Part shown: positions 53,666 to 60,578 of the stretch, one piece after another
How the letters are laid out: each line of letters opens with the position of its first letter
Numbering within the stretch: the stretch's first letter is position 1
NCBI GenBank assembly: GCA_035516965.1
Contig: DATIZR010000027.1
Location: 1-64,000, forward strand
From: Nitrospirota bacterium
GTDB taxonomy: Bacteria; Nitrospirota; UBA9217
Length of the DNA stretch: 64,000 nt
Reading direction: 5' to 3'
Notes under the pieces: generated by a model
What the model saw: only the letters and a program-made list of their open reading frames with translations
Told to the model about the DNA's origin: nothing
Databases searched by the model: none
Position numbers and translations under genes: made by a program

Positions 53666-53692
53666 GCGTTCAGTCCATACAAGGGAGTGTCT

Positions 53693-54295
53693 ATGTCGCC
53701 ATCGGTATTGAAGTACGAAGCGTCGGTTTCCAAATCCCTGCTCGACGAGGTCTCGGCCCGGTCCGGCCAGAACCTGCAGGCCTGCTATCAGTGCCGCCGT
53801 TGTGCCGCCGGCTGTCCGGTGGGGGAGGAGACGGGGGTCACGCCGGACCGGTTGATCCGGATGGTCCTCGTCGGAGACAGGGAAGGGGCGCTCAATAATC
53901 TGCTCGTCTGGAAGTGCGTGTCCTGTTATACCTGCGGTACGCGCTGCCCCAATAATATCCAGACCGCGCGGATCACCGAGACCCTGAAGAAGATGTCCAA
54001 GGAAGCCCATTTGAAGCCGCTCACCCCCCGCATCGCCGATTTTCACAAGGCCTTCATGACGTCTACGGGCCACTTGGGCCGCGTCAACGAGATCGAACTC
54101 ATGGCCATCTACGAGACCAAGACCCTGTTCAAGGAGCTCGCGAAGGGGAACCTGAATGCCATGTTCGAGGAAATGAAAAGCCAGGCTAAGCTCGGCGCGG
54201 AAATGACGAAGTTGAAACGGATGCACTTCGGCATGGACAGGGTCAAGAACCGCGCGGAAATAAAAGCCCTCTACAAAAAATCCAAGGGCCGCTGA
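53693..54295 (+). CDS. hdrC: Heterodisulfide-reductase-type subunit HdrC
   Basis: A 200-residue iron-sulfur protein with two [4Fe-4S] motifs: C-Y-Q-C-R-R-C-A-A-G-C-P near residue 30 and C-V-S-C-Y-T-C-G-T-R-C-P near 78. The C-terminal half is helical and basic. It should relay electrons between HdrA and HdrB. AAGGGAG before the ATG at 53693 fixes the start. Confidence 0.93.
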   Translation: MSPSVLKYEASVSKSLLDEVSARSGQNLQACYQCRRCAAGCPVGEETGVTPDRLIRMVLVGDREGALNNLLVWKCVSCYTCGTRCPNNIQTARITETLKKMSKEAHLKPLTPRIADFHKAFMTSTGHLGRVNEIELMAIYETKTLFKELAKGNLNAMFEEMKSQAKLGAEMTKLKRMHFGMDRVKNRAEIKALYKKSKGR

Positions 54296-54324
54296 CGGCC
54301 GTATGAGAGGATGAGTACCGTCCT

Positions 54325-55200
54325 ATGGAAATAGCCTATTATCCCGGTTGTTCACTCCATGCATCGTCCGAGCTGTACGATATCCAGTGCAAGCTCGTGT
54401 TCAATAAGCTGGGCGTCGAGCTCAAGGAGATCGAAGATTGGAACTGTTGCGGCGCCACCGGCGCAAGCAAGACCAATGAGTTCCTTTCCATCGCCCTTCC
54501 CGCCAGGAACCTGGGGCTTGCCGACGCCACCGGTCTTTCCGAGATCGTGATCCCGTGCTCGTCGTGCTACAGCAGGACCCTCGTGTCGCAAAAGGTGCTT
54601 GCCTCAGATGCGGCGCTCAAGGAATCCATCAACGCGGAGCTCGGCCATAAAATAGAAGGCAGGATCAAGGTTTCGAGCATCCTCGAGGTCCTGCGGCCCA
54701 AGGTTGACTCGGGAGAGATCGCCGGCAAGGCGGTCAAGAAACTCACGGGCCTCAAGCCGGCCTGTTACTATGGCTGCCTCATGACGCGGTTCCCGGTGGA
54801 CATCGACGTACCCGATAACGTGGAGAATCCCCAGGGAATGGAGATCGTCTGCAAGGCGCTCGGCGCAGAGCCCGTCGATTGGAGCTATAAGACAGACTGC
54901 TGCGGCGCCTCCGGGGCGTACAACGATGCCGAACAGTCGCAGCTTCTGATGTCCCGTATTTTCAAGGACGCGACAGCCCGCGGCGCGAACTGCCTCGTTA
55001 CCACCTGCCCGCTCTGCCAGATGAACGTGGATTCCTACCAGGACGAGGTCGGCAAAAAATATGGGATAGAAAAGCGGCTGCCGGTCTACTACATCACGGA
55101 GCTTATCGGCGTCTCTATGGGGATCGACCCAATACTCATGCAGGTCGACCGGCATTTCGTGGACGCCATGGGATTGTTAAAGGAGTTGAACCTGATATGA
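54325..55200 (+). CDS. hdrB: Heterodisulfide-reductase-type subunit HdrB
   Basis: A 291-residue protein with two CCG domains: Y-Y-P-G-C-S-L...N-C-C-G-A-T-G in the first half and Y-Y-G-C-L...D-C-C-G-A-S-G-A in the second, followed by T-T-C-P-L-C-Q-M-N. In methanogens these cysteines hold non-cubane [4Fe-4S] clusters that reduce the heterodisulfide. In a non-methanogen next to MetVF the acceptor is probably different. Its stop overlaps the hdrA start. Confidence 0.94.
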   Translation: MEIAYYPGCSLHASSELYDIQCKLVFNKLGVELKEIEDWNCCGATGASKTNEFLSIALPARNLGLADATGLSEIVIPCSSCYSRTLVSQKVLASDAALKESINAELGHKIEGRIKVSSILEVLRPKVDSGEIAGKAVKKLTGLKPACYYGCLMTRFPVDIDVPDNVENPQGMEIVCKALGAEPVDWSYKTDCCGASGAYNDAEQSQLLMSRIFKDATARGANCLVTTCPLCQMNVDSYQDEVGKKYGIEKRLPVYYITELIGVSMGIDPILMQVDRHFVDAMGLLKELNLI

Positions 55201-58200
55201 GCGCACAGACTACTTCGAAAAAACAAGGCTCGGTCCTGATCGTCGGCGGCGGCATCGGCGGCATGCAGGCGGCCCTCGATCTCGCGGAAAGCGGCTTCAA
55301 GGTACACATGGTCCAGAAGGACACCTCCGTCGGCGGGACCATGGTCATGCTGGATAAGACCTTCCCCACGGGCGACTGCGCCATGTGCATGATCTCGCCC
55401 AAGATGGTCGAGGTCGGCCGCCATCTGAACATAGACATTCACACCCTGGCCGAGGTGACCTCGGTCTCCGGCCGGTCCGGCGACTTCACGGTCAAGGTAA
55501 GGATGGCGCCGCGCTACGTCGATAAAAGCAAATGCACCGGCTGCGGCGACTGCGAAGCGAAATGCCCCAAAAAGGTCCCGAGCGAATTCGACCAGCAGCT
55601 CGGCCAGCGCAAGGCCATCTTCTCCCTCTTCCCCCAGGCGGTCCCGAACACGCGGGCCATCGACTCGAAGAACTGTCTCTGCCTTACCGATCCCCAGAAG
55701 AAGCGCTGCCGCTTGTGCGAAAAGGTCTGCAAGGCCAAGGCCATCAACTACGAAGACGCCGGCAAGGAGATCGAGCTCCATGTCGGTTCCATCATCCTCT
55801 CTCCGGGTTTGAATCGGTATGATGCGCGGGTGCGGCCCGAGCTGGGTCTGGGCCGCTGGCCGAACGTGGTCTCCTCGGTCCAATTCGAGCGCATCCTCTC
55901 GGCCTCGGGCCCGTACCAGGGCGTTGTGCAGCGGCCGTCCGATCAGAAGCATCCTGTCAAGGTGGCCTGGATCCAGTGCGTGGGGTCCCGGGACAGCCAC
56001 AACGGGAACCCCTGGTGCTCGTCGGTCTGCTGCATGTACGCGACCAAGCAGTCGATCATAGCCAAGGAGCACGACAAGCACATCGAGCCGACCATCTTCT
56101 ACATGGAGATGCGGGCCTTTGGCAAGGATTTCGACAAATATGTGGAGCGGGCAAAGAACGACTACGGCGTCAAGTATCAGCGTGCCATGGTCTCGGCGGT
56201 CCGCGAGGATCCCGGTACCGGCAACCTGGTCCTTCGGTATTCCGACGAGACCGGTAAACTTTTGAATGAGACCTTTGACATGGTGGTCCTGTCCGTGGGC
56301 CTGGAACCCCACTCGGACGCCCTTGAGTTCGCCAAGACCTTCGGAATCGAGGCCAACCAATACCAGTTCGCCAAGACCTCGCACTTCACGCCGGTCAAAA
56401 CCTCGCGCGACGGCGTGTTCGTTACCGGCATCTACCAGGGGCCCAAGGACATTCCCGACACCGTGATGCAGGGCAGCGGCGTGGCCGGAAGCGTCATGGC
56501 ACTTCTTGCCGAGGCGCGCGGGACCGAGACCAAGAAAAAAGAACTGCCGCCCGAGAAGGATGTTGCCGGTGAAGCGCCCAGGATCGGCGTGTTCGTCTGC
56601 CACTGCGGTACGAACATCTCCTCGACCGTCGAGATCGACCAGGTCGTCGAGGCGGTCAAGAAGGAAAAGGGCGTTGCCTACGTTACGAATACGATTTATG
56701 CCTGCGCCCAGGACAACCAGGATGTGATCAAGCAGACGATCAAGGACCAGAACCTGAACCGCGTGGTGATCGCGTCCTGTACGCCCCGGACCCACGAGAA
56801 GCTTTTCCAGGAGACGATCCAGGAGGCGGGCCTGAACAAGTACCTCTTCGACCTCGCCGACATACGCGAACAGTGCTCCTGGTGCCATAAAGGCCAGAAC
56901 GAAGTGGCCACGAAGAAAGCCATCAAGATCGTCAAGATGGCAGTGGCCAAATCACGGCTGCAGGAGCCGCTCAAGAGCGAGAGCGTTGGCGTGACTCCTG
57001 CATGCCTCGTCATCGGCGGCGGCGTAGCCGGCATGACTTCCGCCCTCGCGGTTGCCGACCAGGGTTTCCCCGTGCACATCGTTGAGCGAGAACAAGCGCT
57101 CGGCGGCCTGGCAAAAAACGTCTACCGTACTCTTGACGGCTCCGACGTGCAGCACTTCCTCGCAACGAAGATCGCGGAGGTCAAGGCCCATCCCAAGATC
57201 ACGGTGCATACAGGCGCCGAGGTCAAAAAGACCGACGGTTTCGTGGGCAATTTCGAGACGACCCTGACCAATGGGAGCGTCATGAAGCACGGCGCCATCA
57301 TCCTTGCCAGCGGCGGCGTGGAATATCAGCCTACGGAATACCTTGCCGGTCAAAGCTCGAATGTAATCACCCAGCGTGACCTGGAAAAGAAGTTGTTCCA
57401 TGAAAACCTCAAGCCGAAGGCCGGCGAGCGTTACGTCATGATCCAGTGCGTGGGTTCCCGCGAGGAACCTGCCCAGTACTGCTCCCGGGTCTGCTGCCAG
57501 GACGCCATCAAGAATGCCATTGCCATTAAAGAGCGGAACCCCCTGGCTGAAGTGGTGATCCTCTACCGGGACATCAGGACCTATGGTCTTCGCGAGGACT
57601 ATTACAAGCAAGCCCGGGATCTGGGCGTGTTCTTTGTCCGCTATGATGTGGACCGGAAGCCGGCGGTGGAACAGGCCGGGAGCAAGGTCCAGGTCAAAGC
57701 CTGGGACTATATGCTGAACCGGGAGCTCCAGTTCGACGCCGACTGGCTCGTGCTCTCCGTCGGGCTCAGGCCGCATCCTTCGACCGAGAGCATCGGCGCC
57801 ATGTACAAGGTCACGCGCAATCCCGATGGCTATTACCTTGAAGCTCATGTAAAGCTCCGGCCTGTTGACTTCCCCAGCGAAGGGCTCTTCGTGGCCGGTC
57901 TCGGGCATGCGCCCAAGAACCTCGATGAAACCCTCATCCAGGCCTTGGCCGCCGCGGGCCGCGCCGGCGTGATCCTGTCCCACGAGAAACTCGCGGTCTC
58001 CGGCATCATCGCCAAACACAAGCGGGAGCTCTGCATGTCCTGCCTCTCCTGTCTGCGCGTCTGTCCCTTCGGATCGCCCTACATTGACAAGGACGGGAAG
58101 GTCTCGCACAACGAGATCAAGTGCATGGGGTGCGGGATCTGCGCGGGCATCTGCCCGGCCAAGGCGTTCCAGGTGAACAACTTCCGGGACGACCAGATCC

Positions 58201-58253
58201 TCGCCATGATCGACGCCGCCGCGGAGTCCGAGGCGGGCGTGATGGGGTCGTAA
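55197..58253 (+). CDS. hdrA: Double-module HdrA flavo-iron-sulfur protein
   Basis: A 1018-residue protein, well over the usual length of about 650. Residues about 12-450 form an HdrA-like FAD module (V-G-G-G-I-G-G-M-Q near 16, a ferredoxin-like C-T-G-C-G-D-C-E-A-K-C-P near 112, further C-R-L-C-E-K-V-C). A second, complete HdrA follows: F-V-C-H-C-G-T-N near 465, FAD motif G-G-G-V-A-G-M near 605, and C-terminal ferredoxin clusters (C-M-S-C-L-S-C-L-R-V-C-P and C-M-G-C-G-I-C-A-G-I-C-P). It is the candidate electron-bifurcating or confurcating core. The ATG overlaps hdrB. Confidence 0.93.
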   Translation: MSAQTTSKKQGSVLIVGGGIGGMQAALDLAESGFKVHMVQKDTSVGGTMVMLDKTFPTGDCAMCMISPKMVEVGRHLNIDIHTLAEVTSVSGRSGDFTVKVRMAPRYVDKSKCTGCGDCEAKCPKKVPSEFDQQLGQRKAIFSLFPQAVPNTRAIDSKNCLCLTDPQKKRCRLCEKVCKAKAINYEDAGKEIELHVGSIILSPGLNRYDARVRPELGLGRWPNVVSSVQFERILSASGPYQGVVQRPSDQKHPVKVAWIQCVGSRDSHNGNPWCSSVCCMYATKQSIIAKEHDKHIEPTIFYMEMRAFGKDFDKYVERAKNDYGVKYQRAMVSAVREDPGTGNLVLRYSDETGKLLNETFDMVVLSVGLEPHSDALEFAKTFGIEANQYQFAKTSHFTPVKTSRDGVFVTGIYQGPKDIPDTVMQGSGVAGSVMALLAEARGTETKKKELPPEKDVAGEAPRIGVFVCHCGTNISSTVEIDQVVEAVKKEKGVAYVTNTIYACAQDNQDVIKQTIKDQNLNRVVIASCTPRTHEKLFQETIQEAGLNKYLFDLADIREQCSWCHKGQNEVATKKAIKIVKMAVAKSRLQEPLKSESVGVTPACLVIGGGVAGMTSALAVADQGFPVHIVEREQALGGLAKNVYRTLDGSDVQHFLATKIAEVKAHPKITVHTGAEVKKTDGFVGNFETTLTNGSVMKHGAIILASGGVEYQPTEYLAGQSSNVITQRDLEKKLFHENLKPKAGERYVMIQCVGSREEPAQYCSRVCCQDAIKNAIAIKERNPLAEVVILYRDIRTYGLREDYYKQARDLGVFFVRYDVDRKPAVEQAGSKVQVKAWDYMLNRELQFDADWLVLSVGLRPHPSTESIGAMYKVTRNPDGYYLEAHVKLRPVDFPSEGLFVAGLGHAPKNLDETLIQALAAAGRAGVILSHEKLAVSGIIAKHKRELCMSCLSCLRVCPFGSPYIDKDGKVSHNEIKCMGCGICAGICPAKAFQVNNFRDDQILAMIDAAAESEAGVMGS

Positions 58254-58265
58254 GAATCATGTTCA

Positions 58266-58336
58266 CCGCAGAGGACGCAGAAAAATACAATAGAAAAGGT
58301 TATCTCGAATATTCTCTGTGATCTCCGTGGTAGCTG
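58266..58336. repeat. Small inverted repeat of the CTCTGTG family
   Basis: The left arm CCGCAGAGGACGCAGAAAAA and the right arm TCTCTGTGATCTCCGTGG are inexact reverse complements around an AT-rich centre. It sits in the gap between hdrA and mvhD. Similar arms occur at 32353 and 62456. Confidence 0.5.
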
Positions 58337-58372
58337 TCGTAGATTTTGATTATGCTTGAAAGGAGTGCATCC

Positions 58373-58885
58373 ATGGCCGTAGCATCAGAAACACCGGAAA
58401 AAGTCGCGGTTTCGTCCGTCGAGAAACCCCACGAAGCGCCGCCGGGCTGGGAGCCGAATGTGATCGCCTTTGCGTGCCATTACTGCGCGTTCGCGGCGGC
58501 GGACCTGGCAGGCGTCATGCGGCTCTCATACACGCCGAGCGTCAAGATAATCCGTCTGCCCTGCACCGGAAAGCTCGACCACATCCACATTCTCCGTGCA
58601 TTCGAAAAGGGCGTTGACGGCATCTTCGCGGCAGGCTGACTGAAAGGCCAATGCCATTACCTGGAAGGTAATCTGTTTGCAGCAAGAAGGATAGAATACG
58701 TCAAAACACTGCTGACCAAGGTCGGCATCGACCCGGCGCGCCTGGAGATGTATAACCTTTCCGCAGCAATGGGCCCGCGGTGGGCGGAGATGTGCAACGA
58801 ATTTGTCGAGAAGATACGGAAACTCGGGCCGTCGCCGATAGGGCTCGCACGACACGGCAAGCTATGCGGCACGGAAAAGGAGTAA
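58373..58885 (+). CDS. mvhD: Selenocysteine-containing MvhD-type hydrogenase/Hdr delta subunit
   Basis: A 170-residue protein with an in-frame UGA at 58637-58639 read as selenocysteine (residue 89). The frame continues without interruption for 82 codons, giving G-U-L-K-G-Q-C-H-Y-L-E-G-N-L, the conserved MvhD site in which Sec replaces cysteine, and then a family-typical C-terminus (I-R-K-L-G-P-S-P). Other cluster cysteines are in C-H-Y-C (35, 38) and L-P-C-T-G-K (64). MvhD carries a [2Fe-2S] centre passing electrons to HdrA. AAGGAG precedes the ATG at 58373. The N-terminal 28 residues are an unusual extension. Confidence 0.9.
58637..58675 (+). promoter_or_regulatory. Candidate bacterial SECIS element
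   Basis: Sixteen bases after the UGA codon, ATTACC at 58656-58661 pairs with GGTAAT at 58667-58672 around the loop TGGAA. A short apical hairpin with G residues in its loop at this distance is what SelB recognises in bacterial selenoprotein messages. The whole element is inside the coding sequence. Confidence 0.6.
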
Positions 58886-58892
58886 ATGACCA

Positions 58893-59585
58893 ATGATAGT
58901 CGGAAAACAGAAACCATTTGATGAAATCTGGGACATGGTCAAGGGATTCAAGAAGGTCCTTGTCTTCGGTTGCAACACCTGCGTCGCCATCAGCCACGCG
59001 GGCGGCAGCAAGGAGGCGGAGATCCTCGCGTCGATGATCCGCATGAAAGCGACCCAGGAGGGCGCTGACATGCAGGTCGACAATGCGGCGATCGAGCGGC
59101 ATTGCGAGCCCGAGTTCTTTGAACCTCTCATGGAAAAGGTGAAGACCTACGATCTGGTGCTCTCCACCGCCTGCGGCGTGGGGGTGAACTTTCTTGCCGA
59201 TCGGATCGGCGACAGCATCCCGGTCTATCCAGGCGTGAATACCACGTTCTACGGCGCCGTCCCCAAGGCCGGCTACTTCGTTGAACTCTGCGGAGGGTGC
59301 GGCAACTGTATCCTGCACATGACCGGCGGCATCTGCCCGGTGGTTCGCTGCTCCAAGTCGCTCATGAACGGGCCCTGCGGCGGAACGGACAAGGGCAAGT
59401 GCGAGGTCGGCAAGGACATCGACTGCGCCTGGTACCTCATCGTCGAGCGGATGAAGAAGCTGGGCAGGATCGAGGAGCTGTATTCCATCCAGCCGCCGAG
59501 GAACTGGTCCCCGGGAACCCACGGCGGACCGCGAAGACTCGTATACGAACACATCATGGAATTGGAAGAAGAGAAAAAGGCTTAA
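58893..59585 (+). CDS. metV: Methylene-THF reductase partner MetV
   Basis: A 230-residue cysteine-rich protein of the MTHFR C-terminal (MetV) family. Cysteines occur in F-G-C-N-T-C, T-A-C-G-V-G-V, C-G-G-C-G-N-C and G-P-C-G-G-T-D-K-G-K-C, enough for zinc and two [4Fe-4S] clusters as found in acetogen MetV. It passes electrons to MetF. The ATG is seven bases after the mvhD stop. Confidence 0.92.
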   Translation: MIVGKQKPFDEIWDMVKGFKKVLVFGCNTCVAISHAGGSKEAEILASMIRMKATQEGADMQVDNAAIERHCEPEFFEPLMEKVKTYDLVLSTACGVGVNFLADRIGDSIPVYPGVNTTFYGAVPKAGYFVELCGGCGNCILHMTGGICPVVRCSKSLMNGPCGGTDKGKCEVGKDIDCAWYLIVERMKKLGRIEELYSIQPPRNWSPGTHGGPRRLVYEHIMELEEEKKA

Positions 59586-59603
59586 GGCCGGAGGATAATC
59601 CGA

Positions 59604-60578
59604 ATGAAAAGCGGAAGCAATCTGGAAAAAGTCATCGCAAGCGGAAAACCCGCGGTCACTGCCGAGCTCGGCCCTCCCATGAGCGCAGACCCGCATGAAG
59701 TTGTCGAGAAAGCCCACAAGCTGAAAGGCTTCTGCGACGCGGCGAACATCACAGACTGCCAGACGGCGGTCGTGCGCATCTCGAGCATCGCCGCCGCGTT
59801 CATCGCCCAGCGGGAAGGGCTCGAACCGGTCATGCAGATGACCTGCCGGGACCGGAACCGGATCGCCATGCAGGCGGACCTCCTCGGTGCCGCTGCCCTG
59901 GGCCTCAAGAACTGCCTCTGCATTGCCGGCGACCATCAGAAGTTCAGCGCCGCGGGCAAGCTCAAGGGTCATCCGGGCGCGAAGAATGTTTATGACGTGG
60001 ACACCTGCCAACTCGTCGGGATCATGAAAAAGATGCGCGACGAGAGCCTTCAGGAGGGCGGCGACAAGATCGAGGTCCCGCCGAAGTTCTTCATAGGCGC
60101 ATCCTGGACGCCCATGGGAGACCCGATCGATTTCAGGCCGTACAACCTCAAGAAAAAAGTGGATGCCGGAGCGGACTTTATCCAGACGCAGGGGATCTAC
60201 GACGTGGAGATCTTCAAGTCGCAGATGGAAAAGGCCAGGAACCTGGGGCTCCACGAACGGACCGCGATCCTCGGCGGCATCATCGTGCCCCGGAGCGCCA
60301 TGATGCTCAAGTACATGGACTCATCGGTCGCGGGCGTCACGGTGCCGAAGGCGCTGATCGACCGGATGAACAAGGCGAAAGAGGCCGCGGGCGAGGACAA
60401 GAAGAAGGCCCGGGAGCTGCAGGAAGCCGAGGGCCTCAAGATAACCGTGGAGCTGATCCAGCAGATCCTCGAGATCCCGGGCGTCAAAGGCGTTCATATC
60501 CAGGCCATCGAATGGGAGAGCGCCATCGAGGGGATCGTCAAGGCGGCAGGTCTTTATCCGCGGCCATCGTTCGATTGA
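59604..60578 (+). CDS. metF: 5,10-Methylenetetrahydrofolate reductase MetF
   Basis: A 324-residue FAD-dependent reductase producing 5-methyl-THF. It has T-A-E-L-G-P-P near the start, L-C-I-A-G-D-H in the FAD region and the barrel motif D-F-I-Q-T-Q-G-I-Y-D. Together with MetV it would use electrons from the Hdr module instead of NADH alone. GGAGG precedes the ATG. Confidence 0.94.
   Translation: MKSGSNLEKVIASGKPAVTAELGPPMSADPHEVVEKAHKLKGFCDAANITDCQTAVVRISSIAAAFIAQREGLEPVMQMTCRDRNRIAMQADLLGAAALGLKNCLCIAGDHQKFSAAGKLKGHPGAKNVYDVDTCQLVGIMKKMRDESLQEGGDKIEVPPKFFIGASWTPMGDPIDFRPYNLKKKVDAGADFIQTQGIYDVEIFKSQMEKARNLGLHERTAILGGIIVPRSAMMLKYMDSSVAGVTVPKALIDRMNKAKEAAGEDKKKARELQEAEGLKITVELIQQILEIPGVKGVHIQAIEWESAIEGIVKAAGLYPRPSFD

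Follow-up and report, generated by a model that had tools for sequence, protein, structure and literature searches.

Comparative evidence for selenocysteine at an in-frame UGA of mvhD in an HdrCBA-MvhD-MetVF locus of a Nitrospirota bacterium

Does the UGA at codon 89 of a bacterial mvhD gene end the protein, or is it read through, and if so as which amino acid? The gene lies on the forward strand of the first 64,000 nt of contig DATIZR010000027.1 from a Nitrospirota bacterium (assembly GCA_035516965.1), the whole stretch analysed here and called the window below. Its frame starts at ATG 58373, with a probable ribosome-binding site (AAGGAG, 58360-58365, recognised from the sequence) 7 nt 5′ of the ATG, meets TGA at 58637-58639, and then stays open until TAA at 58883-58885. 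A preliminary description made from the sequence had counted 82 more codons after the UGA; the frame is indeed open, but the count is 81 sense codons followed by the stop. The C-H-Y-L-E-G-N stretch and the C-terminal MvhD features that it placed downstream are both found in the sequence. Read through, the 170-residue product matches PF02662 (FlpD) with 157.3 bits (cut-off 22.3) over profile positions 1-123 of 123, and the two halves match separately, with 76.6 bits before the UGA (profile 1-59) and 63 bits after it (62-123). The structure model of the read-through protein reaches a pLDDT of about 95 for most positions between residues 30 and 150, and its fold agrees with the MvhD chains 5odh_D, 5odc_D and 7bkb_F at a target-normalised TM of 0.95; the solved relatives of the product are MvhD chains of Hdr complexes. 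On the agreement of profile, alignment and structure model, 58373-58885 is a single intact MvhD/FlpD gene, broken only by the UGA at codon 89.

The simplest reading of that codon is a genuine stop, leaving either a truncated protein of 88 residues or a decaying pseudogene. Standard gene calling does end at UGA89, just as had been predicted, and this is the point in favour of termination. Against it, the frame 3′ of the UGA supplies the rest of the domain and is under purifying selection (dN/dS of about 0.05-0.18 where computable), and metV begins just 7 nt past the later TAA. The UGA itself is kept across phyla, being found at codon 89 of 19 loci besides the window, most of them adjoining metV. 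These are genomes of the window's own family (L034-L036), one from a different family of the same phylum (L037), a Thermodesulfovibrionia MAG (L050), Thermodesulfobacteriota (L051-L054, L130 and L131, including Desulforhopalus singaporensis DSM 12130 as L053), two Anaerolineae (L064, L065), an Aminicenantes MAG (L092), two further loci (L055, L158), and three in which metV was not found nearby (L119, L122, L123). Recurrence at the same codon in these loci, together with purifying selection after the UGA, indicates that the open frame is not due to chance. Among the MvhD homologues compared, none had a true stop at codon 89 followed by a sequence lacking conservation, the observation that the preliminary description had named as fatal to its proposal. 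Stop codons noticed in L063 and upstream in L138 are meaningless, as they are positioned before the gene start. Termination at UGA89 is therefore very improbable.

If the codon is read, the homologues point to what it replaces. Five Cys/Sec positions are conserved in the MvhD alignment (35, 38, 64, 89 and 94), and every aligned homologue has either Cys or Sec at residue 89, with Cys invariable in the Cys homologues, so the earlier proposal that UGA stands in place of a conserved cysteine holds without exception. The codon also aligns with X, a modified residue, in VhuD chain 9sfi_K. The cysteine ligands of the MvhD [2Fe-2S] cluster are not stated in the available portions of the literature on the solved complexes; less firmly than the preliminary description had it, residue 89 is a plausible putative ligand of the Fe-S cluster. 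It lies where a predicted beta strand runs out into a loop, as other conserved cysteines do, and Sec there would probably tune either a redox pair or the site of the cluster.

Since the homologues have Cys at this position, insertion of Cys would also yield a working protein, and one may ask whether UGA89 is decoded not as Sec but as Cys or Trp, either because the code has changed or because termination is leaky. Of the 42 long ORFs in the window, 17 end in UGA, which is therefore a normal stop here and has not been reassigned. The full Sec system is also present. All four genes whose presence had been suggested as a check (selA, selB, selC and selD) occur in the same genome, with selA and selB scoring well above their cut-offs, selC encoding a tRNA-Sec with anticodon TCA, and selD itself containing an in-frame UGA. 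Four molybdopterin oxidoreductase genes of the genome have an in-frame UGA, FdhA with its UHSS motif among them; the formate dehydrogenase alpha gene on the same contig (L164:10528-13251, contig C27, at about 72.5-75.3 kb and so beyond the window) carries its UGA at UHSS, and its sequence DHCARY-U-HSSTV, about 14 kb downstream of mvhD, is the Sec site of formate dehydrogenase. Among the 17 genomes with Sec89, counting that of the window, selB was above its cut-off in 14 and below it in three, all of them MAGs; Cys-type MvhD is found in selB-bearing genomes too. Together with the conserved hairpin linked to UGA, described below, these observations make a Cys or Trp reading less probable still than termination. 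As a separate observation, the genome (G000) holds two selA and two selB-like genes, on contigs C42 and C71; the second set has a transposase-like ORF as its neighbour on a contig of 4.9 kb and reflects either duplication or contamination.

The hairpin proposed in the preliminary description is found as claimed, at 58656-58672 of the forward strand, with stem ATTACC/GGTAAT and apical loop UGGAA, starting 16 nt past the UGA. It falls within the H-Y-L-E-G-N codons, the stem overlapping those from His95 to Asn100. Its folding energy is not unusually stable against shuffled sequence (z 0.40), and across the hairpin tests z-scores lay between +0.5 and -1.3, so that energy was rejected as proof; a search of Rfam with the hairpin region gave no match to a SECIS family, unlike the SECIS of fdhF type. 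Because the energy is ordinary and Rfam is silent, the case for the hairpin rests on comparison of loci. All six stem pairs are present in 16 of 17 UGA loci compared with 2 of 83 Cys loci (Fisher p about 2e-15, which is not a true probability as the loci share kinship). Where the majority residue is kept, codons 95, 96, 97, 98 and 100 are invariant among 14 UGA loci, while the mean majority-codon fraction elsewhere in MvhD is 0.59 (85 other columns). In an alignment of 19 UGA loci, 100% of stem cells are paired, and shifting the stem partners along the alignment abolishes the pairing. Six rows hold a double change, in which Tyr96 TAC becomes Phe TTC and Gly99 GGT becomes GGA, turning an A-U pair into U-A. 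The other five pairs are invariant across the UGA loci, and hence the covariation rests on one pair. With this covariation and with its presence in nearly all UGA but very few Cys loci, the hairpin after UGA89 is, on comparative grounds, real, and the SECIS-like element of the preliminary description is upheld. Bacterial SECIS elements of the fdhF type, which bind SelB, are likewise in-frame stem-loops shortly 3′ of the UGA, and the hairpin in the window resembles them in having G at the second loop position and 22 nt between UGA and loop; the bacterial SECIS rule places this spacing at about 16-37 nt. Two Cys-type MvhD genes linked to MetVF (L058 and L062) retain all six stem pairs, G-U included, and are possible remnants of a lost SECIS. 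In L123, from a Syntrophomonadaceae, codon 89 is UGA and the shared stem is absent, so the SECIS of that locus must differ.

Two further explanations are barely credible. A sequencing or assembly error turning TGC into TGA needs only one base (TGC or TGT to TGA) in what is a draft genome of 120 contigs, but the same TGA and a covarying hairpin occur in independent assemblies of relatives, including the named strain D. singaporensis DSM 12130, and this recurrence refutes an error for practical purposes. A split MvhD, made as two separate half-proteins that then assemble, accords with each half matching PF02662 on its own, but the break would land within a loop of conserved cysteines, and the UGA is kept along with the hairpin, in UGA genes only; no start for the second half was noticed.

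We therefore infer recoding at UGA89 from the comparative evidence, and taken as a whole, it is almost certain from these comparisons that UGA89 is decoded as Sec under direction of the hairpin, in the electron-transfer subunit of a predicted HdrCBA-MvhD-MetVF complex. SelB with Sec-tRNA(Sec) would bind the stem-loop that starts 16 nt past UGA89 and, once bound, would drive Sec insertion instead of termination, as the comparison and the known working of bacterial SECIS elements suggest. The product would serve as the [2Fe-2S] electron-transfer subunit of the HdrCBA-MvhD-MetVF methylenetetrahydrofolate reductase in the Wood-Ljungdahl pathway.

The setting of the gene is consistent with this role. 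Upstream of mvhD, profile searches identified an hdrC-like 4Fe-4S protein (53687-54295) and an hdrB-like protein with CCG domains (PF02754; 54325-55200), followed by an hdrA-like flavoprotein of 1018 aa with two pyridine-nucleotide/FAD domains and no in-frame UGA (55197-58253). Downstream are metV (PF12225; 58893-59585) and metF (PF02219, methylenetetrahydrofolate reductase; 59604-60578). All are on the forward strand, so that hdrC, hdrB, hdrA, mvhD, metV and metF are contiguous over 53687-60578. Farther on the same contig lie AcsE, AcsD, AcsC and CODH/ACS alpha/beta, and beyond these a Sec-formate dehydrogenase, its NuoF-like partner and formate-THF ligase; the Acs/CODH, Sec-formate dehydrogenase and formate-THF ligase genes mark a Wood-Ljungdahl locus. 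The gene set is identical to that of the HdrCBA-MvhD-MetVF reductase of Moorella thermoacetica and Sporomusa ovata (PMC9430772, PMC5736913), and by this analogy the complex of the window probably shares its role in the Wood-Ljungdahl pathway. Pull-downs in S. ovata connect MetVF with MvhD and Hdr subunits (PMC9430772). According to the reports on the solved homologous complexes (PMC12350162, PMC6019823), the [2Fe-2S] cluster of MvhD passes electrons to the HdrA flavin, and by homology the MvhD of the window would exchange electrons with this flavin in either direction. Unlike the Sec89 gene of the window, the S. ovata reductase is described without mention of selenium in PMC9430772, and our literature check on Sec in Moorella Moth_1193 (the MvhD adjoining MetV) found nothing.

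Sec in MvhD is not unprecedented, as bacterial Sec-FrhD/MvhD had been catalogued by 2006, with 19 cases (PMC1794560), and was later reported from Desulfobacterium autotrophicum (PMC2702500) and Desulfococcus multivorans (PMC5109826). Known examples include Syntrophobacter fumaroxidans, D. autotrophicum mvhD1/2/3/5, D. multivorans and M. thermoacetica; like the gene of the window, they belong to PF02662, have UGA replacing a conserved Cys and often lie beside HdrA. The preliminary description had called it notable that a bacterium should have Sec beside MetVF, which stands only in part, given these precedents and the recurrence of Sec-MvhD beside metV in several phyla: 16 loci, the window counted, in Nitrospirota, Thermodesulfobacteriota, Chloroflexota and one Aminicenantes MAG. 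A 2026 review (PMC13188914) lists CxxU as the Sec motif of MvhD and allows for one or two Sec residues. This CxxU corresponds to residue 38 here, whereas the gene of the window has Cys38 and Sec89 instead. Archaeal VhuD of Methanococcales (PDB 9sfi/9t1s) has, as here, a modified residue aligned with residue 89, and chain 9sfi_K has X, taken as Sec, at both 38 and 89; unlike the MvhD of the window, VhuD is archaeal and part of Hdr-Vhu complexes, and archaeal SECIS elements are located in the 3′ UTR (PMC11227280). Within the literature checked, of which the open-access coverage is incomplete and some sources were partial, neither Sec-MvhD beside MetVF nor a Sec89-only site is described. The new aspects thus appear to be the HdrCBA-MvhD-MetVF setting and Sec at residue 89, not 38. 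For annotation, standard gene calling will yield a truncated MvhD here and in relatives from at least three phyla, so that a complex central to carbon fixation will seem broken.

The evolution of the two sites was traced in a tree of 129 MvhD sequences in which residues 38 and 89 were masked. Nearly all MetVF-linked MvhD form one group (SH-aLRT 99), which includes Cys, Sec38 and Sec89 members. Sixteen Sec89 rows form one branch with support of 89, short of firm, and placing L092 inside this branch is not rejected (p-AU 0.868). Twelve loci of the MetVF-linked group (L138, L144, L146, L147, L149, L150, L154-L157, L159 and L073) carry the UGA at codon 38 instead, with codon 89 coding for Cys. After UGA38, most of the twelve fold a hairpin GGACC-TGGCA-GGTTC, and the apical motif CC-UGGNA-GG is common to the Sec38 and Sec89 hairpins; the Sec38 hairpin is less well supported, since its motif partly encodes the conserved D-L-A-G. 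We are therefore inclined to think, with some reserve, that MetVF-coupled MvhD carries Sec at either 38 or 89, never at both in the loci compared, each with its own hairpin of the same motif, while relatives have Cys at both. If true, positions 38 and 89 would be partners in a single functional site and could stand in for each other, and the swap of the Sec site in a core carbon-fixation enzyme would be previously unreported. The mosaic of Sec and Cys, with two alternative sites in one group, offers a natural experiment on the role of selenium in the [2Fe-2S] subunit, which feeds a flavin with a presumed part in electron bifurcation. The Sec89 gene is carried by a culture-collection strain. 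A further bacterial MvhD match (G319:C1:108999-109415) has two in-frame UGA codons and may, like archaeal VhuD, carry Sec at the two sites together.
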